A DNA stretch of 64,000 nt, taken from positions 33,499,676-33,563,675 of the forward strand of contig CM049311.1 of the NCBI GenBank assembly GCA_026874595.1, in the 5' to 3' direction. The DNA is from Sipunculus nudus (Eukaryota > Annelida > Sipuncula > Golfingiida > Sipunculidae). The translations under genes were made by a program, and so were the position numbers. Below the pieces are notes generated by a model that was given only the letters and a program-made list of their open reading frames with translations, ran no database searches and was not told the origin of the DNA. Shown here piece after piece: positions 2,910-55,905 of this stretch (positions are counted from its first letter, which is position 1; each line of letters opens with the position of its first letter).

Positions 2910-4035
2910 TGGATGTCTGCAGCCAAATTGTGTATGAAGGTTGCCCCCCCCCCCCCCCACCACAAAATCCAGAAAGCCGTCCAAGTTGTATACATATGCA
3001 AAATTTAAGGCAGATAAGTCAAACCACTACATGTATATGAGTGATTTTAGCCCGTGGCAGACAATCAGATGGACGCTGAGCAAATATGGTTGCAGGTGAC
3101 GCCACCAGTTTTGCGTATGATAAAGAGCTATGTGAGAACTATACACATGCAAAACTTTGGCCTAATCGGTCAAACGGTTCCCAAGATATGAGCTTGGATG
3201 TCTGCTGCATAAACTAGAATGCAGGTGGCGCCACCTTTCATAAAATCAAGAGAGCTGTCGGGAATGTATAAACCTGCAAAATTTTAGCCAGATATGTCAA
3301 ACCACTGCCGAGATATGAGTGATTTTATCCTATGGCAGACAAACAGACAGGAGCTGTGCAAAAATGGCTGCAGGTGGCGCCACCAGTTTTGCGTATGATA
3401 AAGAGCTATGTGAGATCTATACACATGCAACATTTTGGCCCAATCGGTCAAACGGTTCCCGAGATATGAGCTTGGATGTCTGCAGCGTAAAAGTGAATGT
3501 AGGTGGCGCCACCTGTCATAAAATCAGAAAAGCTATCCAGGATGTATACGCATGCCGAATTTCAGGTGAATTAGTCAAGTCACTGCAGAGATATGAGTGA
3601 TTTTAAACCAAGGCAGACGAACAGATGGACACTGTGCAAACATGGTTGCAGGTGGCGCCACCATTTTTTGTGTATGTTATAAAGCTCTCCAAGGGCTACA
3701 TTTGTGCAAAAAAAATTTCTGATCGGTCAAACGGTTCCCGAGATATGAGCTTGGATGTCTGCAGCGTAAACGTGAATGTAGGTGGCGCCACCTGTCACAA
3801 AATCAGAAAAGCTATCCAGGATGTATACGCATGCCAAATTTCAGGTGAATTAGTCAAGTCACTGCAGAGATATGGGTGATTTTAACCCAAGGCAGACGAA
3901 CAGATGGACACTGTGCAAACATGGTTGCAGGTGGCGCCACCATTTTTTGTGTATGTTATAAAGCTCTTCAAGGGCTACATTTGTGCAAAAAAAATTTCCT
4001 GATCTGTCAAACGGTTCCCGAGATATGTGGGTTTA
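2910..4035 (+). repeat. Four-copy 279-bp tandem repeat with GGTGGCGCCACC palindromes
   Basis: The word GGATGTCTGC recurs at about 2910, 3196, 3474 and 3753, so the unit is about 279 bp; the last two units are nearly identical and the first is the most worn. Each unit holds two copies of the 12-bp perfect palindrome GGTGGCGCCACC (3224, 3373, 3502, 3651, 3781 and 3930; the first unit has a damaged version near 3091), spaced about 149 and 129 bp in turn. Each unit also carries the word GGTCAAACGGTTCCCGAGAT. The open frames here are fragments of the repeat and are not conserved as protein between units. Confidence 0.85.
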
Positions 4036-20645: not shown

Positions 20646-23600
20646 AAATAACCCCCTGCCCTTCGTGGAATCCAGACTACACCCGTTCTAAAAATAATGT
20701 GCCGCGTACATGGGTAAATTAATTCATATTTGCATTTAGTATTGATTCAAAACACGGCACGTGTGAATATGCGTGTAGGCCTACTTGCAGTGGTGCAGGG
20801 GGGTTATGCATCTAGTAGGCATTCCCTGCACCCCCCCCCCCCCCCCACACACACACACCGACACACATTTAAACACTCCCACACCTAGAAGACGCTATCC
20901 GATTCACTCATCTTTCCCAGCGTACACTTGTTTATGAGTGATAAGTACTACCTGGTGTGGGATACGTGTTTTATTGTTTTGCCTCAATGACTTGAAGAGA
21001 ATGTAGGGGGTCGGGTATATGACCGAAGAGGAAATATACATCTCTAAAATGGTATTCCATGTTATATATATAAGTGCAAAGTCCCGTCCCTTAAGTTTTG
21101 CGTCCATTTTGTGAAAAACTAGCTGTGAGCTTATGTGGGCTACCTGAAGATACGCAACAAAAATGGAAAATACGATTATTGGTCATGTCGTACGCATGAA
21201 ATTGGTGTTAACACTCTCCTCCTCCGGCGTAATAATCAATAACAGAAGGTACGCCACTACAGGCGAAAAGTACGTCATATCGGGTACTTTTGTACACCAT
21301 TAAGGATTCGCAAACGCTTACCTAACGCGAACCTCCGCGCTCATTTGTCCGAGCTTAAGTGTGAGGTTTTTAAGTGATCGATGCGTCAGAAGAGGATGCT
21401 AATTGATGACTTCCGGAACCGCACCATCCAGCACTTCCTTTTCAGTAATAAATACACCTACATCAATTACAGATTCAACGTACATTTATTGGAGGTCAAG
21501 ACCGTTTTGAGTAATATTACATTAAAGCACAACATATTTGTTAAATAACTCAGCTTTCTCAAAAGCATTTATTACAAAGTTGCCCTCATTTTCGAGTGAC
21601 TATATTCCTCGTGTTAATTTACCTCTATATTAGGAACAGGATAACTTCTACCAGCATTTTGCGCAGGTAATCACATAATTCATTTTTAATCTTTAAAGTA
21701 TGAGAGTTAAATAAGCTCCGTTTAAATTTGACCACGTCATTGCTAATCCTCTTGTATGACTGATAATCTTTATTATTTCTGTCCTAGAAACTACTTTACA
21801 GCACCTTGTAATGTAAGTGGCCGCATAACTCAGTGGCCGCATAATTCGGCATATTTTAAAATCTGCTATTGGGTAGGTCAGTCGTGCAACTCTAGGTGTT
21901 CAGTCTAGAATATATGTATTTTATAATATAAAGGTATTTTATTCAGTTTTTACGTAGTTAGTATAATTGTATAAGGAGTCTTGTTTGAGAGAAGATATAT
22001 CGGTATACCTTCTGTAAAATGTCATACTTGACATGGAAATATTCGATTACCTTTTTGTTTGTGTAGTTTCACGGTGTGTCAAGTAGACGGTGTATTAGGT
22101 ACAAGACTCAGGTACCAAAGGTTTAGACAAGAAATCATGATAAAAGTTTAAAAGGGTTGGGATAAAAATTGTTATGACAAAGGAAATGATTCAACGAACC
22201 TGTACAAAAAGGAATAATTGGTACCCCGCGCAATTAGGTGTGGATCCCCATGCACGTTGGATCTGAAATGGTGTGTTCTGAAGCAGTTCGTAAAATCATT
22301 CCACTACCTCCCTATACTCCGCAGCGGGTTCTAAACAGTCAAGCGTATACATGAGCCGGTCATATATCATTTTTATCCGTACGAATTCATTCACCTTCTT
22401 CAGGCATGGGGTTTCCTGGTTCGGTTAGTGTTGTTGATCGACCTGTCTCGTCGATCATCCATAAACGGATACATTGCATTCTAGCGTGACGAGTGCTGTA
22501 TGGCAGGGAACATGTTGATAGCACTTGATACTAATCGTTTAGCTCAGAATCATGACCAATCATTTATTTACCGGAAGTAATCATTCTTGTTAGCTACTAC
22601 CGTTGATTATGTCATATATTAGTATATGTATGCCCATTGTCATGGAATAACTTAATTAATGTCTTAGCAGTTATAATTCTCCCAAATTCAGCAACGTTCC
22701 AAATAACTGAAAACATCTCTCTCAGCTTTTTGTGTTTCAATCAACATGACTCCTTTTAGATTTTATCTGTTTCATTTTGATAGTACATGTACTTCATTCT
22801 TGTGGTATCAAACGAATTCTCGCTTGTTAAATGAAACAATGTTTAAAATGTATTTTATTAACCAACATCTCTTCTAAAAAGTAGTCCATCTATTAAAACA
22901 CTGATTTAATGAATGTTTACATTAGACAATGTTCAAAAGTAAAATGACGAAAATGACGAAACATATTCGTGGTATACATCTGCAATATCAAAATATAACG
23001 TGAATGTGAACATTAATATATTCATGCTTAATGTATTAAATAACAAATCAGTTATCTGTACATTCATTTAACAAAATAGTGTCGGTACAAAATCAATGCC
23101 AACACCGCTGGAGCTATCATGCAACACACAAACATATAGATGTAATTAAAGAGAAAGAGATGCATACATATGTCTCCATATACTCTCTAAAATACTTCTC
23201 TAATATATGCTTGAAAACGGATATACATGCCTATACCATTTATCCATAAAAAATATATAAATGTGACAGTAAATTATCTCATAGTTACAAATGAGCAACT
23301 CCAAGAGAAAATAGCTTTTTTTCAAACCTTGGGGAGATATACCCACTCATTTCCCCAACTTTCGGATAAGTGAGCCGATATTCTAATTGGTTAGCCATTG
23401 GAACATACCGCTTGTACCGGGTTTGAGTGAAACCTACATTTAGCTTACTGAGTAATCATGTAAAAATTGTAAAACTTAGATGCATTTCATATGAATAAAA
23501 TTATTGATCGTTGGCTCATGTTCAGGTCTGTTTTAATTTTGATACAAGGCCTCACTTATGAGGATAATTCCACGAAATTTTTAACCCCACGAATACTGTT

Positions 23601-31520: not shown

Positions 31521-32364
31521 TACGATGATCGTTAAGGGATGGTTTAAGCTCTCAGAACTGCCTGCAGTGTCTGCTTTAACAATGAATCAGTTTTATTTAA
31601 TATAATCCAAATATTTGCCTGGGTCTTTCTGACATGTACATATTCTTACAACTCTTCTCTACGATTAAGCCTATAAAAACCTTGGGATTTTAACTTTAAA
31701 GGGATGTGTCTCAGTTATTTATGGTTCAAAACATTCCTATGGTACCAGATAGAGTTGAAAACATATGTTTGGAAATGAATATTCTTATTTTGCTTCAATT
31801 CTTTAATTTTAAGCTTTTTATAAGTGAAAATTTACAAGAATAAATTAAATTTTATACACTTAAAAATAAATATCCTATGAAATTATAATTTTGGAAACTT
31901 ATCAGTAGACAGATTCTATAGGGGATTATTACCTGTATTTTATCATTATGCCCAGATGTATTTTTAGGTTGTTACAAGTAAGTTATATTATTTTGTTCGA
32001 ATAGCTGAAATTAATTAAAATAAATTATTGATAGTACCAGACATCCCAAATTTATATACCAACATGTAGAGCACATCCTTAGTTTAAGAATATGAACAAG
32101 TCAAGGGGTCTAAGATCAGTATTTTGTAAAAATATTAAGGAAAAACGGAGACAATGGTCATGAGATACTTATGAGACCTTCACTAAAATATTAAGAAACG
32201 ACATGTTATACTGTTGTCAACAGAACCCGTTTACTTCCAAAGGTAATGGACGAGATAATTTTGATGTTTATCTTGTACCAAATCATCGTTACATGACCTA
32301 ATCTAACAATGCGATTCGCCTCCGCCTTCCACCTTTTCTTTTGTGAATAAGCACCCGGTTGATA

Positions 32365-32763
32365 TATGTACTCAGTGTGATCACAGGAATTTTTACATCA
32401 AATTTTTGTCAACTGGACACGTTGTAATCACAGGATCATTTACATCATAAATTTTAACTGGACACGGTGTGAGAGCAGGATCTTTAACGTCAAAATCATC
32501 AATTAGACTCGGTATTATCTTAGGATCTTTTACATCAAATCATCAACTGGACATAGTGTGATCGCAGAAACTTTTACATCACAATTATCAACTGGACTCG
32601 GTGTAATCACAGGATCATCCCCATCACAATTATCAACTGGACTCGGTGTAATCATAGGTTCTTTTACATTATAATAATTAACTGGATTCGTTGTGATCAA
32701 AAGATCGTTTAAGTCACAATCACAAATTGCACATTCCAGTTTGGATGTGCGAATATTGAACAT
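32365..32763 (-). repeat. 45-bp minisatellite, eight units, partly open as a 15-residue repeat
   Basis: The unit (AACTGGACTCGGTGTAATCA, then AGGATC and TTTTACATCA) repeats every 45 bp, for example from 32583 to 32628. On the minus strand a frame begins at 32763 with MFNIRTSKLECAICDCD and runs into repeats of the type VDNCDGDDPVITPSP. It stops at 32530, where a one-base length change breaks the frame. A CTGACAG just before the ATG resembles a 3' splice site. Unit B has only about three worn units and an early stop; unit C has lost the whole block. Probably a former repeat-coding exon or plain minisatellite. Confidence 0.6.
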
Positions 32764-33491
32764 CTGTCAGCGTGCTGTAAACGCATCTCGAATCTCAATT
32801 TAAAATAAGTAACGTCTATAAGTCGTTCTTAAGGAAAAAAAAAACTGCACAGAATCGTACTCTTAAGAGGGCCCTGCAGGTTAGGGATCGATGGCAAAGA
32901 AATCCTCTCTCCACAATGCACTTGGGCTACTAACTACACCGTCGGCTTGGTTATAAATGCAGTAAAGATAATATAGTATGGTTAGTGATGTTGGAAAAAA
33001 TTTGTTACAAGACAAATTACATGATCATGGAAAGTGTTTTTGGTAGGAACCTTTTTCTGAAAAAAAAAAACAAAACAGAAAGTATTTTCGTGAATGGTGA
33101 TTTTTTGTTTAAGTTTGACAAGTGAGACAAGAGGTTCCGGTTGTCCCCAATAGGCCAAATGGAAGAAATGTGGTATTGGGTAGAAACGCCATCTGACGGA
33201 AGCGTATTATGCTTCTTGAATGAATAATAACAGAGTTCAATGAAAGACGACAATTCTTTATTCTTTTAAGGTGTCGACTTTCTAAATTACTGCGCAGTCA
33301 ACAGTGAAAGTTTTTAGGCTAATCCATATTAGCTCATGGTTCCTTGGCGTTTAAATTTTTTATTGCTTTTTTATTTATTTTCTCAGACTGTGGGTGTGAT
33401 GTCTTGAATATACTGAATAAACTGTAAATGGCCAAACAACATCAAATTAATCTTATTCTTAAATACAATGTACAACGTCAAAATAAACCAA

Positions 33492-33640
33492 CAGAAGGTC
33501 CAGTCACAGAGTAAAGGACCAGGGGTCTATTAGGAACAGGTAGGCTATCAGTGGAATCCCTTCTCCATTATTGGTCTTCTTTGATGCCATTCAAGGTCAC
33601 CCTATAGGGGTAAAAGTATATTATTGGCATTCCGTGTATC
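33492..33640. other. Strongly conserved non-coding block (units A, B, C)
   Basis: This block (GGTCCAGTCACAGAGTAAAG, CCCTATAGGGGTAAAAGTAT) is kept almost without change in units B (about 52855-53000) and C (about 63150-63290), while the flanks differ more. No frame is shared. It could be a repeat or a regulatory element. Confidence 0.4.
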
Positions 33641-34494
33641 AAACTGTTCAAACTGCTAGACTGTGTCTTTGACGTGAACGAAGGTGGTTGGTTGCAAATG
33701 AACGACTGACAGATCATTCGCTGGAAAATGACCTTTGTGCGGTGCGATCAGCGTTTTCTGGCCAATTTTTATACAAGTTCAAGAGATCTTCTTAAGGTAA
33801 CAGACGTCACATAAGTCGCTTTAAAAATATTTCTTTTTATTCTATTTGATATGTGTATTTTTTCTTTTCAAACGAAAAATTCATTACTTTTCATAGCCGA
33901 AATAAAATTACTATATTCAGGACCGACAACCGGGACTTTTTTCCATTAAAACATTTAATTTACAAATCTACTTAAAAAATACAATAAAAGCAAACGTACA
34001 TGTAGACAAATATGAACATTACTAGAGAAATCTCAGAACTGAAATAGCCCATATCAGTGTAAAACTTGGATGGGAAAAGAAACAAGAAATATTCTTTTCC
34101 ATGATGGACGGACTTTTTCGGTTAGGACACTCCGGAAATCTGACATTCCGCAAAATACATTAGACAGGTCCTTTTGTATGAAAATACTATTGGTTTTGAA
34201 CCAAATGGAAATGAATTCAAATGCAGGCCAATCAAATGCTCAAATATGTCTGTGAAAAATGTAGGGAAAATGTATGAAGACAGTTTTCTTCAAATCCGCA
34301 CGATGAAAGGAACATAGGTTAGTGGATAGCCTATTATTTTTTTATTATTTTTACCAAGATAATAATATACATAACCCATTGCTAAAATTGTGTACACTTT
34401 CCATACGGCCTTAAAGAAACGCACATAATACACGCTACAGACAACTGCAGCTCACTTTGTCCAGCATAAACACATATATAACATATATTGGCTG

Positions 34495-35337
34495 GCAACA
34501 GGACCACTACCGCCTGGACAATTACCCCCCGGACAACTGCCCCCCGACAATAACCCCCTGGACAATTACCCCCGAGACAATTACCCCCTCGGACAACTAC
34601 CCCCCAGACAACTACCCCCAGGCAATTACCCCCCGGTACAATTACCCCCGGACAACTACCCCCTGGACAATTACCCCCATGGTATAAACCATAAAAATAG
34701 AATCACTTTAGATAAAAATATCATGCTATTACTTATTATAATATCACTTATAGAGACTGGTAAGAATGGATCAGAATGAATGGTATTCCCTATTTGAATG
34801 GAATTATATGTAAGCTTGCGGGTAGTTATAAGGACCATAGGTTTATAAAGCTTTTGTTTTACAACTTGCTAATGTAAAGCAAATTTCATATAATGGACTT
34901 TTTACCATATATTTACAATTTTATTTACAATACATAATACCATCATCTGAGAGGCATTGCCTAGAACTAGTAAACAGCTACTGAAAACTTGATGTGATGG
35001 ATTTTTTTTCTGTTTTTACAATATACATGATGTGTGCACCTATGCTTGGTTTGAAATAATATCATCGGTATTTGTTTTACTTACAATCAGAATATTTTAC
35101 TTGAGTTTGAACAATATGTACTTTAAAAGTGTAATTATACCGTGGGGGTAGTTGCCCGGGGAGTAGTTGTCCGGGGGGTAATTGTACCGGGGGGTAATTG
35201 TCTGGGGGGTAGTTGTCTCGGGGGTAGTTGTCCAAGGGGGTAATTGTCTTGGGGGTAATTGTCCGGGAGGTAATTGTCGGGGGGTAATTGTCCGGGGGGT
35301 AATTGTCTAGGGGGGGGGGGGTAGTTGTCCTAGAGCC
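34495..35337. mobile_element. 843-bp foldback element with inverted G-rich minisatellite ends and 10-bp target duplication
   Basis: The left arm (34501-34679) is about a dozen tandem copies of GGACAATTACCCCCC. The right arm (35141-35331) is the same repeat inverted (GGGGGGTAATTGTCC). About 460 bp of AT-rich spacer without a gene lie between. The outermost ends match in inverted form (AGGACCACTACC and GGTAGTTGTCCT). The 10-bp word ATATTGGCTG flanks the element directly on both sides (34485-34494 and 35338-35347). Arms built of short tandem repeats and a target duplication near 9-10 bp recall Foldback-type elements. Runs of five to twelve G in the arms could form G-quadruplexes. Confidence 0.8.
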
Positions 35338-35724
35338 ATATTGGCTGTATCTGTTGAACTATTGTTTTGAAAAGGTATTATTAGATAGACAGAACGATGG
35401 ACCCCGATATATCGCTGTATGGCTAACAGGTCAATTGTACATCACTGTGTCATCGACATTATAGAAGTATTTAATTAAACATGGTTGGCCGGGTAAGGGA
35501 AGGATGTAGCCTTCAGGAGCACAAGGAGTTGACTTCCGTGATACATGTACCTGGTTCATTCGAAATCAGTGCCTCAAAGGCAAAATTACCAAAACTTGTC
35601 TTCCATCTACATGACCATTTCAAAAATGTCCCTGAGTCTGTTTTGTCAAGTGTCTGTTTTCTTAATATTACCTGAACTGTTGTTCTGGGATCACCTGATA
35701 CATATTCTGAAACCTAAGGATATT

Positions 35725-36940
35725 TATATTTACCTTTAAAATGTTATTTCCTAACTATTAATGGTTCAAAACATTAAATTATCAACATATTGAGTTGTAA
35801 GCATAAACACTTAAATGCTATAACGGGTCCAATCTTGAACAGGAAGACGTTTATAGGTAAAAATTTGAAGAAAAAAATAATTTATGCTTATTTAAAACGC
35901 AAATGTCCTAAAAAGTATAATTTTGAAAGAAAGCAAGTTTCCCTAATAAAAATTTGTAAATATGTTTTAGGATTTAGCATATATTTACATGATGCATAAT
36001 TTTCGCATTTATGTTGGAATAAATTAGTCAAATATCCTGAAATCCGTTAAGGATATTTTTAAATCAGATCAAATAATTCGTGATTAGTATTGCCAAGGTT
36101 TTCATATAGTAACATGAAGAGTGTATTTTTATTTGTGTAACCAATATGTTTTGTTTTCATTTTGACCACGAAATATGAATTCGGCTCTTAACCTGAGAAA
36201 GCAATCAAAGTGCTGAGTAAATTGATGAATATGTATTCATAAGCCAATTGAAACAAAAAAGATCAGTTTACATATATATGTAAATCGGAAATCTGTTCAC
36301 ATGACACAATTTACTGAATAAGTAAAGTTATTTGCATGCAAATATAATTTTGAATCCCCTCCTGAGGTCGTGCAGATATACTTTACTCATGTCAGTTTAC
36401 ACCAGGGGTATTTATTCCCATATATGCAAATCTGTACACATGACACATTATACTTGCATTAGAAAATTTATATCCATATGTATATATACTTACAGGAGTA
36501 AATGGGTGCATGTGAATTGGGCTTGAGGGAATGAATTTTCTCAGTCTTTGTCAATTCGGCAGCAGTTTATATATTTTTCAATTAAATTCTATTGAAATTT
36601 TATTCACGTTTTGTTGTGAAAGGGTTCGATATTTATAATCACGACCCGCCCAGTAAAAACCTGGATACAGCCCTGAAGACAAATTGTTGAAAGACAAATA
36701 ACATGATCTTTGTTTTTTTTGGGGGGAGGGACATTTTTGTAAACAGAAGGTATGTTCGTGATTGTGACAATTTTAAATTTAGAACCGGCAACCAGGATTT
36801 TCTTTTCAATTAAAACATATTATTGACAAATCTACGTAAAAAACACAAATATAAGAAGATACACCAATAGACAAGCATTTAAATTTAGACAGACATCGCA
36901 CAATTTATATAGCCCATTTTATTATAAAACTTGAATGAAA
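35725..36940. repeat. Partial internal duplication within unit A
   Basis: Blocks here repeat blocks found further left. ATGGTTCAAAACATT with the following AT-rich text (35760-36100) resembles 31730-32100. GAACCGGCAACCAGGA...TATAGCCCAT (36780-36940) resembles 33920-34060. Unit B has only one copy of the second block, closer to the right one. Local duplication or unequal exchange has shaped the 3.6-kb piece between them. Confidence 0.5.
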
Positions 36941-39002
36941 AACTGAATCACCGTGACCTCCGTTCCGTTATGCTCTTGGAATACAGTTGGCATACACACA
37001 TTAACTGTGTGGCCGCAGCGGAGCGTGACGTCACGCTATCTTCCTCATCAGTCAAGACGTCATCCGTATGTGTTCCAGTTTAAATATGGTGTAAATGTAA
37101 ACACACGGGGCCTGCAATCCAGATTTTTTGTTGTTTTTTCTTTTCTTTTCTTTAATTATGTGAATTCTGTACGATTTTTTTCTTCTTTAATTATGTAATT
37201 CTGTAGGATACCATATAACCATGGTTATCAACGAATGAAAGTCGAATGAAATTTGATTAGTTGTGTGTTTATATGAAAAAGGTACCTTTTATGTAAATAC
37301 CAAATATAGTATCATAATAATTACAATGCAGAGAACGGGAGTTATAAGTTATTGATAAGAAAACACAATGGTAACACACTAAACATAGGTAATTGCAATC
37401 GCATGATAAAAAAAAGATGTTTTGAGTGGCTCCTATTTTCTTAAATTTTCTACAATTCATTAATGTAAAACAGGCATTCTTTGTGCCCTGCTATTAAGAA
37501 TATAAGTTGCAATCTTTATATACTTGTGTTGTAATCGACGCCGTTAACACAATGTTAAAAGTTTAAGTTAGCCTTTTCATTTTATCAAAGAATATAAGTC
37601 GAAGGTACAAACATTCTTAAACCATTTCTGGCATTCTCCAATACGCCAGTTTACGTCCCGCCGATTTCCTTAACAAGCCTATCTAAAGTGTGAGCGTTTG
37701 CAACCGGAGATTGATAAGCACTGCAGGACGTTTTCATAATAAATTGAATATTCGTGTTATGTCAAGGATGGGATATACTGATAAAAAAGACTCGCCAGTT
37801 CTGTAATCCTGACAAGCCACTCACGCCACCGTATATGACGAACATATTTGTGACCTTTGCATTCAGGGATAGATAGCCCTGAGTAAATTTCAGTGAGCTG
37901 TGTCGGACTCCTTGACCCGGCTCACATCACGTGATCAAGAGGGTTGAATTACTATGGTTACCTTCATATTCGCGGGGTTGATTATTCGTGAATTTTACCT
38001 GTTTGATGTGTCTTGATCTTCTATATGGGCGATCTCTGTGTAGCGTAATCCATACGGAGTAAGCACATTTTTTTTATATGTCACGCTATCTTGCTTACCA
38101 GTCTAGACGTCATCAGTATGTGTGCCAGTTTAAAATTTGTGTAAATATAAACACACGGGGACTGCAATACAGATAATCTTTTTTTTTCTTTAATTTTATT
38201 AATTATGTATGATACCATAGCATACCTGTTCGGTGTGTCATGATTGTCTATTTCCGCGATCTCTGTGTAGCGTAACCCATACGCAGTATGCACATTTTTT
38301 ATATGGATTTTAAAATGTGCGCCCCACATGTTATCCAAGGGAACATAGATCTGTTGGAAATGCACATTTATTATTGGCAGATAGAATAATATTGATAATA
38401 TTAATCTTTGATTTTCACTTAACATAAAAAGCTGTTATTATTCATATATCAATCTGCTCCTGACCATACAAAGAAAGATAATGGATAGGAGTTGCCAAAG
38501 AGGCTACAGTATTCACAAAACTGTATAAAATATGCGTCTTACTCAATGTTTTAATTTCAAAATATTTCTCTTTTGCTAATATCTTAAATTTAAAACTCCT
38601 ATGATCTAATATATGCACCGTACCCTTATGACCTAATGCAATCACACATGTTGATGACAAGCTTCCTTTGACAATAAGGGCCAGAGATATGCTACTTGTT
38701 AAAAATATATTCATTATTTAAAGAGGGGCTGTTAACATATTTACTCCTCAGGTTAAATGAAATGGAAATGATAATGTAGGTATGTGATTACATGTCAATA
38801 TGATTAATAAAGCGCTTTAGTTATCGATGACGTCATGATCGGCTTTGATCGACTGAGACTTGATTATACAGAACATATTTTCTTATATACAAAAGAACAT
38901 TGTGAATTTCATCTTTCTTTGAAATAAAAAATAAAATTAAAAAATCAACAGCGGTCAAAACAGCGAAAATGCTGTCTCTCTCCCTCTCCCCACTTTACTC
39001 GT

Positions 39003-39004
39003 CC

Positions 39005-39065
<61 letters not shown>
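39003..39065. repeat. (CT)n(TA)n microsatellite at the A/B junction
   Basis: About 19 CT steps followed by about nine TA steps lie exactly between the end of unit A and the start of unit B. Confidence 0.9.
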
Positions 39066-39414
39066 CACCGTACTCGTCTCCCTCTACCCGTTTCTTTTCG
39101 GTTTCTCTGTCCGTCTGTCTGTCTTTCTGTCTGTCACACACGAAATGGGTAATGTCGTACTTATAAAATTAATGTTACCCTCGCCTCCTCATCCGGCGTA
39201 ATACTCAAAAACAGAAGGTACGTCGCTATAGGTGAAAAGTACGTCACATCGGGTAGTTTTGTATGCCATTAAGGATTCGCAGATGCTAACCTAACGAAGT
39301 TTTCCTTATGAAATTCCGCGAGCCTCCGCGCTCATGGCTTCGAGCTTTTATGTGAGGTTTAAGTGGTCGTTACACACACTAAAGGATGCTAATTGATGTC
39401 TTTGGGAATGCACC

Positions 39415-40362
39415 TTCATGAAATGTATAAGCAGATCATTTCTTTTTGCTCGTTTAAGCTCGACGTAGAACCATAACAAGGACACGTCGCTTGCTGCCAC
39501 ACCGTTAGTCACTATTATCAACATCGTGTTTGGTTTGAAGATATTTATTTTGACAGGACTACAAAGTAGCCATTGGCTAACGTGCATGCTCTCCTGTAAA
39601 CATGTTACATGTTCACAATGACAATCACAACATATATACATATAAGCATAAGGTGACATTTAAGCACGTAATGCAATATGGGCAACATAATATATACGAA
39701 CAATAACCCCACAAATGGACAAAACCTAAATAGACATACAACAGGACATACAGGATAACCGTTAACTGTATACTGTCCTAGTGGCGGGTTTCAAGACAAT
39801 AATCAGTGGACCACTGTGATATATACAAACTAAACATTTAAAACGTTCCGTTTATGTGATAAACCGTGTTGAGGCCATGCGTATCCTATATCTTATAAAG
39901 TCTGATGGGACATTCCTCCAATATGAAAGAATTATTTTAATTTTTCATTTTCACTTTTAGTTTAAAGATCAAGGTTGATTAAGAATTTCACATCATATTT
40001 TTCTTCGTCAAATGCTGAACGTGAACATGTCAGATCGACATTTGCTATACCTTGAACAGAGGAATAAATAGTGTTCTTTGCCTTTTTTCAGCTGCTGTAC
40101 AGTTACAAAATTGACTCTCTGCTTTCCCGATTTAAAATAAGTACTTATTTAAGGGACAAACCCCGAATCTAAACCTTATGATAATTATCTCGTTTTTTTC
40201 TGACAGGAAAATGAAACATTTGTCTCCAGCTTTCTTTCTTTCTTTTAAATTAATGTTTTCTTTTCAGGGCGTGCTTAAAAGAATCAAGAAAATTTACATA
40301 TCTTATTTCAATCGGCAATGCATAACATTTTTACTTTTTTCATAAGTGGTATACATATATAC

Positions 40363-51217: not shown

Positions 51218-54200
51218 ATGCAATGATCGTTAAGGGGTGGATTAAGCTCACAGTGAAACTCACAAGAATTAATTTATATCCTTTCATTAAAAAAATACCC
51301 TATTAAATCATATTTTTGGAAACGTATGATTAGACACAGTCTTGGGAATTTTACCAGCATTTCAACATTATGCCCAGATGTATTTTTTAGTTGTTACAGG
51401 TATGCTTTGATAAATTATTTTTTGTTCGAGTATTTTAAATTCATTAAAATGAACTTTTGGATAAAACCATCAATTACCAGACATCCACAATTTATAAAAA
51501 ACAACATGTACAGCACATCCTTAGTTTCAGAATATGCACATGTCGAGGGGACAAAGGCCAGTATTTTGTAAGTATTAAGTAAAAACTGAGACAATGTGTA
51601 CATATATTCATGAGAGAGACAATATGTACACATATTCATGAGAGTGCAATATGATATTCACGAAAATATTAAGATACGACATGCTATACTGTTGCCAACA
51701 GGACCCGTTTACTTCCAAAGGCGATGACGGGTTTATTTTTATGTTTTTCTTGTACCAAATCATTATTGCATAGTCCATCTGAACCCATAGCCGAGCCACA
51801 ACTGTGAACGTGGTATTGCAGCAGTTAATTCAGCTACAATAAAACACAAAACAGGCCGCTATTAGGGGATAAGGATAAAGCGTATATTTCGTTTATGCCA
51901 TACACCTCCGCCTCCGGCCTATCTTGTGTGAATAAACATCCTGTTCATATATGTACTCAATGTGATCACAGGAATTTTTACATCAAAATCATCAACTACT
52001 ATAGACTCCTTGTGATAACAGGAACTTTTACCTCTTAGTCATCAAAAAGACTCATTGTGTTAACAGGATTTTTTTTAAATCATAATCACAAGATTCACAT
52101 TCGGGTTTGGATGTGTGGATATTGAACATCTGTCAGCTAACTTCTGTAATCGCTCTTTCGGTCAAAACAATTATGTTTCCACACTGCACAGAATCGTACT
52201 CTCAAGAGTAAGACCCTGCAGTTAAGGGATGGCTGGCAAAGAAATCCTCTCCCCACAATGCGCATGGGCAGCTTACAATACCGTCGGCTCAGGTATTAAT
52301 GTAGTAAAGAGGTTAATGTAATCCTTTAACCGATGCTGGATCAGAATTGTTGCAAGGAAAATAACATTACCATGGTTGCTTTTTTTTTGTAAGGACTGAA
52401 AGGATACATTTTAGTAAGCATGCGCATGCGTAATGTAAACAGAAGTTATTTTCTTGAATTGTGACAAATTTTAATTCTTAAGTTTGACAGTTGAGACAAG
52501 AGGTCCCGGTCGTCCCCAAAATGCCAAACGGAAATAGGTGGGGTTTTGAGTAGAAACGCCATCTGGCGGGAGCGTGCTTTGTTTCTTTAATGAATAATAT
52601 CGGAGTTTGATTAAAGACTACATTACTTCATTCTTTAAAGGTGTCGAATTTTCAAATCACCGGACAGTTAATTTATTAAGGCTACTTCATTTTAGCTCAT
52701 GGTTCGCTTGGCGTTTGTTGCTATCTTATTTATTTTTTTTCTCAGATTTCTAATGTCTTCTGACATATATTGAAAAAAAGTACTCCATTGAATGGCTAAA
52801 CAACATCGTCGACTTTGTTTCAAACTAACCATACTCTTAAATATAAAGTCCAACAAAAGGTCCAGTCACAGAGTAAAGGATCAGGGGTCCAATAGAAACA
52901 GGTAGGCACTCAATGGAATCCCCACTCCATTATGGGTCTCCGATGATGCCATTCAGGGTCACCCTATAGGGGTAAAAGTATATTATTGACATTCCTTGTA
53001 TCAAAATTTTCAAACCCCAAGACAGTATCTTGAACGTTACCAAGGTGGTTGGTTGCACATGTACGGAGGCTGACAGGTCACTCAGCGTTTTCTGGCCTTT
53101 TTTTTATAAGAGTTGAATTGATTCTCTTTAAGTAACAGACAACAGAATAGGCCACTTTATTTTTTTATTCTATTTTAAATGTGTATTTTCCCTGTATTAA
53201 CGCCGAAATTTAAAAAAAATTTCAGAACCGGCAACCAGGACTTTTCTTAATTAAAACATATAATTAACAAATCTACGTAAAAAAGACGCACAAAAAGACA
53301 AATATGAAAATTTAGACAGACATCGAGCAATTTATATAGCCCATATTAGTATAAAACTTGAATGGGAAACTGAATCACCGTGACCTCCGTTCCGTTATGC
53401 TCATGGTACACAGTTAACATACCAACGTAAATTGTGTGGCCGCAGCTGAGCGTGACGTCACGCTTTCTTGCTCCCCATGCAGGCTAGACATCATGTGTGC
53501 CAGTTTAAACTTTGTGTAAATTTAAATACACGGGGAATGCAGTACAGGTATTCTATTTTTTAGATGAATTATGGCAATTCCATATAGGATCGCACATAAC
53601 CATGGTTAAGCAACAGCTATAGTAGTGGTTAATCACAAAATGCAATGAAATTTGATGGGTTGTTTGTATAAATGAAAAAAGTGCCTATTATGTAAATACC
53701 AAATATAGTATCATAACATTTTACATTATAATGCAGAAAACAGGAGTAATCAGTTATTTATCAAAAGACACAGTTAACAGAAGTCATTACAACGGCATTG
53801 TAAAAAAATATGTTTTTTTTTAATTGCTCTGTCTATTCCTTCATCTACCATACATATGGTTGACGTGGTGTGTAAGACATATAAAACTGGTTTCAATGAT
53901 TTACATCCTCAATAAGACGATAAATATTTTGTAGACCTTCCCCTCCCACGATAGAATAAATATAAGTATATAACCATATTTTTATTTAAATCAATTGATC
54001 CCGATTTCAAAACAAGATATTATATAATTTGGATAATATAGTACCATGCACTTGCACAAGGATGATTCCTTCTGTGGTTCATAAGAACCGATTTTCTAAT
54101 TTTTTCCAAAAACTTCATTTATGTACGGGCGGTCCGGTGAAGAATGTTAAAGTTTAACATCTGTTTCAGTTAGCCTACTCTTTTTTTTTGTTAATAAAAT

Positions 54201-55557: not shown

Positions 55558-55905
55558 ACATTCATCATGTGTTAATATAAAGCAGGGGCTCCAATATAGG
55601 GAGGATGGGGGTAAATATCCCCCCTCCACTTTTTGGTAAGGGGGATGGTCAATGTAATCACCCCCCCCCCCCCAAACACTATTCAACGAATTATATTATA
55701 TATTGCAGAAGAAATATATTAATAAATAGAATTATACACTTTGGTCCGTATCAAGGCCTGGTATAGAATTAACTTATACTGTAAACATAATACCTATTTT
55801 CTAAAACCGTATAGTTAATTGTAATATATTTGAAATGTGATTTAGTACATATACATATATTGAAAATGTGTCATTCAGACGCTAAAAGGTATATATGTGT
55901 GTAAT
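55249..55905. repeat. Two-copy tandem duplication of about 310 bp
   Basis: GATACATTCATCATGTG, AATATATTAATAAA, TTAATTGTAATATAT and GAAATGTGATT recur in the same order at 55249-55553 and 55554-55905. The second copy has an inserted C-rich piece (55585-55680). Each copy ends near a TA run. Confidence 0.7.
55510..55554. repeat. (TA)n microsatellite
   Basis: About 22 TA steps between the two copies of the 310-bp duplication. Confidence 0.95.

Follow-up and report, generated by a model that had tools for sequence, protein, structure and literature searches.

A putative non-autonomous Mutator-superfamily transposon with Foldback-style arms in a receptor gene array of Sipunculus nudus

Introduction

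Within an array of class C receptor genes in the genome of Sipunculus nudus, two tandem arrays of one short unit face each other in opposite orientation and are flanked by a short perfect repeat. Did this structure arrive in the locus as one mobile unit, and, if so, to which kind of transposon does it belong? A sequence-only reading of the window (the whole stretch of 64,000 nucleotides analyzed here) had proposed a mobile foldback-type unit with G-quadruplex-prone arms, a perfect 10-bp target duplication, and a repeat unit belonging to no described family. We examined these proposals in the window and across the genome of the host, which comprises 1.43 Gb in 153 contigs. Our preferred reading, to which we give a probability of about 0.9, is that the element, with its Foldback-style arms, is a non-autonomous (MITE-like) transposon of the Mutator superfamily whose type is probably Phantom/Muta.

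Results

The element spans 844 bp (positions 34494 to 35337, + strand, with its X end on the left and its Y end on the right), starting with GGCAACAGG and ending with CCTAGAGCC. Its extent was fixed by comparison with 16 other copies whose ends are readable. The string ATATTGGCTG occurs exactly twice in the whole 64 kb, at positions 34485 to 34494 and 35338 to 35347. Because the comparison with the 16 copies shows that its tenth base, a G, is the first base of the element itself, the target site duplication is ATATTGGCT, located at 34485 to 34493 and at 35338 to 35346. A perfect duplication on both sides is therefore present as proposed, with a length of 9 bp and not 10 bp. Both copies of the duplication were delimited by the search for exact repeats and by copy comparison, and the left copy also by the empty site described below.

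From left to right, the element is composed of an asymmetric terminal motif X, GGCAACA (34494 to 34500, + strand); a left arm that is a ladder of 12 units of GGACAAYTACCCCC of about 15 bp each (34501 to 34678, + strand); an A+T-rich interior (34679 to 35143); a right arm of 12 units in the opposite orientation (35144 to 35330, − strand); and a different terminal motif, Y, which reads GGCTCTA on the − strand and TAGAGCC on the + strand (35331 to 35337). The two arms are about 465 bp apart and are 90% complementary across 180 bp. The interior has no open reading frame of at least 150 amino acids in the list of such frames, and its alignment with other copies shows it to be about 100 bp shorter than the family interior of about 565 bp. 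The arms account for 24 of the 25 matches to GGACAAYTACCCCC in the window (at most 2 mismatches), the remaining match being at position 55607, while shuffled window sequence has on average 0.45 matches and at most 3. These counts bear out the proposal of two opposed arrays of one short unit. Long inverted arms made of internal tandem repeats are the structure by which Foldback elements are recognized. Sea-urchin TU elements also have long arms with internal tandem repeats.

The surroundings of the element allow its arrival to be placed relative to the history of the array. Positions 21178 to 64000 of the window are three tandem units (A, B, and C) with class C receptor sequence, of which unit C extends past the window end; open reading frames of units A and B contain the Pfam domains ANF_receptor, NCD3G, and 7tm_3. 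The part of unit A at 32757 to 34494 aligns with unit C up to 155 bp past the window end (92.5% identity), and the part at 35338 to 35502 aligns with unit C from 146 bp past the window end (97.6% identity). The two alignments overlap by exactly one ATATTGGCTG, so that unit C has a single copy of this string. The unit C site is thus cleanly empty, being the paralogous site minus exactly the element, which fits insertion into unit A after units A and C split. Insertion of the window copy into unit A of the receptor gene array after that separation is the most likely history; precise loss of the element from unit C is a less likely alternative.

In the self-comparison of the window, unit B has no match across the element stretch, the region of unit A without a match in unit B being about 34077 to 36775. 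Positions 53217 to 53369 of unit B match both edges of this gap, and the edges look like a direct repeat of about 150 bp. Three further stretches of unit A (31730 to 32756, 35503 to 36757, and 37231 to 39728) are missing from unit C at the corresponding place and have no clear target duplications; the first of them contains a 45-bp tandem repeat at 32375 to 32711. Another tandem repeat, with 3.6 copies of a 278-bp unit, is located at 2964 to 3955 of the window.

Similar elements are dispersed across the genome. A 21-base unit pattern (at most 2 mismatches) was found at 663 + 689 genomic places, compared to 1 + 0 for its reversed control. The family interior, represented by one copy (L037), initially had 176 candidate matches; 40 of them were scored, and every one matched at 90 to 100%, where 100% is the query itself. 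We read 19 places from unit-pattern matches and 9 from interior matches; because the choice relied on exact matches to the pattern or on matches to the interior, the sample is biased toward well-preserved copies. Paired arms less than 1,500 bp apart are present at 14 of the 19 unit-pattern places and at all 9 interior places, which gives 24 copies with the window copy included (L040 repeats L035 and was not counted). The other five unit-pattern places (L022, L031, L033, L034, and L038) have only a single array. Seven of the 24 paired-arm copies (L021, L025, L026, L027, L063, L064, and L070) have an end that is truncated or too altered to read and stand outside the duplication count. The sequence-only reading had called for a genome search for other copies with 9- to 10-bp duplications, and we found a 9-bp duplication with one mismatch or none in 15 of the 17 end-readable copies, exact in 13 of the 17; none was found in the remaining two (L029 and L071). 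In a mispaired control, 0 of 272 combinations matched with at most one mismatch and 1 of 272 with two.

The 21-base X end, GGCAACAGGACAACTACCCCC, has 84 + 83 = 167 genomic copies with at most one mismatch, and the 21-base Y end, GGCTCTAGGACAACTACCCCC, has 81 + 79 = 160 (reversed controls, 0 + 0 for each). Together, the genome has 327 X and Y ends in dispersed positions. In the 200 of these that were listed (the first 100 of each kind), 46 convergent pairs lie within 12 kb, of which 45 are X-Y, 1 is X-X, and none is Y-Y; the 45 X-Y pairs have a median length of 980 bp (range, 283 to 7,697 bp), the two longest being 2,366 bp (C6:81627892) and 7,697 bp (C3:93766472). Descent of all copies from a single X-Y master would account for this pairing as well as function would. 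The empty unit C site, the dispersed copies with 9-bp duplications, and the convergent ends together uphold the claim of a mobile foldback-type unit.

The sole X-X pair among the ends listed (C10:76512064-76512834, 771 bp) is perhaps a recombination product. Local duplication of the family is suggested at two places: in L024:4512-5896, another right arm follows after 1,176 bp, and three X-Y copies are about 10 to 12 kb apart on one contig (C15:34464119, 34476531, and 34486835).

Across the 17 end-readable copies, the arms are 154 to 234 bp long and have 9 to 14 counted units, with low counts being lower bounds because badly changed units were merged. Of the 395 tabulated units of 12 to 18 bp, 224 are 15 bp long, and the core ACAAYTAC is more than 95% conserved at each position, partly because the unit finder requires it. 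Particular rungs carry their own marks, CGACAA in 29 of 34 arms and GTACAA in 30 of 34, at the same place in the ladder as judged by eye. When X and Y arms of different copies are compared, the in-order score exceeds the unit-shuffled score in 270 of 272 pairs, which leaves free minisatellite turnover unsupported. The two arms of a single element (likeness, 0.918) do not resemble each other more closely than an X and a Y arm from different elements do (0.916; permutation test, P = 0.25), and homogenization or conversion from arm to arm through a hairpin is not seen. For reference, likeness is 0.927 between X arms, 0.933 between Y arms, and 0.938 between interiors (average of 93.8% in 105 pairs from 15 copies, with L028 and L035 left out). 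Given this lack of extra likeness within an element and the conserved order of the units, the ladder looks as if it was inherited whole and then drifted.

The composition of the arms raises the question of whether they fold into structures of their own. In the arms, G runs are 3 to 12 nucleotides long (mostly 5 to 6) and are spaced by 8 to 11 nucleotides. No canonical G-quadruplex motif, with loops of 1 to 7 nucleotides, is present in either arm, and motifs appear only when loops of up to 12 nucleotides are allowed (3 and 2 in the two arms). Mean G4Hunter scores are 1.31 and 1.19, with maxima over 25 nucleotides of 2.40 and 1.84. In its usual sense, the description of the arms as quadruplex-prone is therefore not supported: canonical motifs are absent, and the predicted potential takes the form of long-loop motifs and high G4Hunter scores. 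In a folding model, the whole 844-nucleotide strand forms one long stem, and a model that permits quadruplexes prefers a quadruplex in the first 90 nucleotides of the right arm as RNA (−41.1 versus −28.9).

These predictions could be given a larger part in the biology of the element in two ways. The X and Y tips may be functionally different ends that the transposase would have to pair as X-Y, with a ladder that is more than a row of binding sites, in that long-loop quadruplexes or a giant hairpin would aid excision and seed new satellites; we regard this as unlikely. Alternatively, the arms would act mainly via structure, with quadruplexes formed by the G-rich strand of each arm and a giant single-strand hairpin leading to excision, replication slippage, or arm-to-arm repair. 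The long G runs, the G4Hunter maxima, the predicted single stem, and the modeled preference for a quadruplex in right-arm RNA speak for such a role. However, the arms lack canonical motifs and are no more alike within an element than between elements, and the ladder order kept across copies implies that turnover by slippage is slow. We consider a mainly structural role to be quite improbable, and the element can be explained without invoking quadruplexes.

What transposase could have moved such elements? One copy, L035 (1,485 bp; duplication, 8 of 9 bases), has about 500 bp of extra sequence inside, with an open fragment of 124 amino acids that has no Pfam match. A genome search with this fragment gave 21 places, seven of them at 73 to 100% likeness. 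Arm units are in the same 3-kb stretch as the fragment match at L040 (which is L035 itself), L042, L045, L046, and L047. Of these, L042 and L045 mark opposite ends of a single 3,686-bp element, and L046 and L047 have a single arm only. When read wider, one more place (L041, as L061) has arms at both sides, and another (L043, as L062) has no arms found. In total, MULE-type pieces lie between both arms at three places (C5:53.75M, C5:63.98M, and C7:49.64M). The two long elements have decayed duplications of 7 of 9 and 6 of 9 bases, the latter depending on where the changed left end is placed. Arm units are common to the coding copies (L035, L061, and the C7 element) and the non-coding copies.

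L061 has several broken pieces, in different frames, that follow the order of a MULE transposase. The L035 and L061 pieces align to local proteins (L052, L056, and L058) with best E values of 9e−17 and 1e−14, as obtained by tblastn against a single locus. All three proteins score for the Pfam MULE domain; L052 does so at 2.6e−14 and also scores for FLYWCH (2.1e−7). Scanned directly against Pfam, one of the four L061 pieces reaches the MULE entry PF10551 with an E value of no better than 0.092 (13.6 bits, versus a cut-off of 27.6), and the other three have no match. FLYWCH was not found in the arm-bearing pieces scanned, which are incomplete. The N-terminal piece of L061 has one other genomic match, at 36% likeness. 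An intact transposase, or an autonomous arm-bearing copy, was not found in the assembly; a non-autonomous copy would not need an intact transposase of its own. MULE domain matches in the genome number at least 131, with 150 of 252 candidates having been scored. None of the 131 is within 33 kb of the 200 listed ends (of 327), the nearest being at 33.8 kb.

Of these 131 MULE domain matches, 43 are in open frames of 607 amino acids with near-equal scores (46.4 to 49.0 bits). Their uniformity suggests a MULE family that was recently amplified and is perhaps active; by the distance between listed places, none of its members is near a listed foldback end. In the long coding copies, a stretch of the family's transposase gene has turned into a satellite at L061:4532-7486 (49-bp unit, 60.4 copies), and nearly the same 49-bp unit is repeated 56.0 times in the element composed of L045 and L042 (C7:49642339-49646024). 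A 29-bp unit, in at least 51.3 copies, lies beside one arm at L047:1599-3087 and reaches the end of that stretch.

Discussion

We conclude that this is a genuine mobile element, that it is typical of its kind, and that it represents a new non-autonomous family of the known Mutator/Foldback type. The probable placement in the Mutator superfamily draws on the length of the duplication, the arms, and the decayed homologous coding pieces: the 9-bp duplication falls in the 8- to 10-bp class, and long terminal inverted repeats are found on coding and non-coding copies. Among animal MULEs, the groups Phantom and MULE-Mollusca have been described, and Phantom has 8- to 10-bp duplications and, in some members, FLYWCH (PMC6446971). 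The element resembles Phantom in its duplication class and its animal host.

The closest plan is that of Tm1 (Transposon in Meloidogyne-1) of root-knot nematodes, a Mutator/Foldback transposon with asymmetric 7-bp outer motifs A1 and A2, followed in both arms by GGA and by mostly 14-bp tandem units (PMC3169594). As described there, the duplications of Tm1 are mostly 9 bp long, copies with a transposase coexist with MITE-like ones, and the protein is a Phantom-like FLYWCH-MULE. The element likewise has asymmetric 7-bp tips, GGA, a ladder of about 15-bp units, and 9-bp duplications. It is not a member of the Tm1 family, since its tips and unit differ from the motifs printed for Tm1 in M. incognita (CGGTTAA, CCTACCC, and the unit CGATTCAGTATCGC). 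In addition, Tm1 is reported with 1 to 9 units, compared to 9 to 14 in the family described here, and some Tm1 copies are predicted to code for a 496-amino-acid transposase (PMC3169594), whereas none was found for this family.

A nearly equal plan of tip, ladder, and 8- to 9-bp duplication is present in Muta1 and Muta5 of Aedes aegypti, to which the element is likened by its plan. Both have a terminal motif of 8 to 10 bp, 8- to 9-bp duplications, a FLYWCH-type MULE, and many derivatives (over 300 for Muta1 and over 200 for Muta5); in Muta1, termed a type 2 Foldback, a 10-bp tip is followed by nine 12-bp units spaced by 3 to 4 bp, and in Muta5 the unit is 15 bp long and likewise occurs nine times (PMC5225508). 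Muta1 is an intact transposon that is mobile in yeast (PMC5225508), while the element lives in another host and has two terminal motifs that differ from each other. Galileo and Foldback of Drosophila share long, internally repeated arms with the element (PMC4079207), a likeness of structure.

Is the unit itself new? Four unit strings searched in literature text gave a single occurrence of one string, in a plant virus study, which we take as chance, and among the papers listed by literature topic searches, none was recognized as describing a relative in bivalves or molluscs. The unit pattern was absent from viral contigs, and 11 stretches of other genome contigs, all bacterial records, had one match each, which we also treat as chance. 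The claim that no described family has this unit stands for the four unit strings in the text searched, aside from one match taken as chance, but not for the kind of element, which is described in Tm1 and Muta1/Muta5.

Foldback-like elements have differing transposase classes, and the transposase of Galileo is P-type (PMC3169594). The element could accordingly be a foldback element of another class, such as the P-type, with the MULE pieces as captured or nested passengers. The coding copies seen are few and all broken, and direct Pfam scores are absent or below the cut-off, as this alternative would allow. Nevertheless, the 9-bp duplications in 15 of 17 copies, the MULE-type pieces between both arms at three separate places, and the close match of the arm plan to Tm1 and Muta1/5 argue against it, and we judge it very improbable. 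A local, immobile inverted duplication of a minisatellite, which the sequence-only reading would have favored had there been neither another dispersed copy nor an empty site, accounts for arms made of tandem repeats of a short unit but is ruled out for practical purposes by the empty unit C site, the duplications in 15 of 17 copies, and the 327 dispersed ends.

The element shares the plan of Tm1 and Muta, and it probably works as they do. As a non-autonomous Mutator-type element, it would be mobilized by a transposase made elsewhere that binds the unit core ACAAYTACCCC, repeated with spacers of a few bases, along each arm. The bound transposase would bring the two element ends together, and cutting at the GG...CC tips would be followed by cut-and-paste insertion via a 9-bp staggered cut. 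Polarity of the element would come from its two different tips, X and Y.

With this family, the known Mutator/Foldback transposons that combine a unit ladder with asymmetric tips gain one more family. The satellites inside its long copies exemplify tandem arrays that arise from a transposase gene. Nearly the same plan, with a short tip, a ladder of units of about 12 to 15 bp, and an 8- to 9-bp duplication, is now found in a nematode, a mosquito, and this animal. If the unit sequences are unrelated, as seen for the comparison with Tm1 only, the transposase of such elements may need the spacing of the units rather than their letters.
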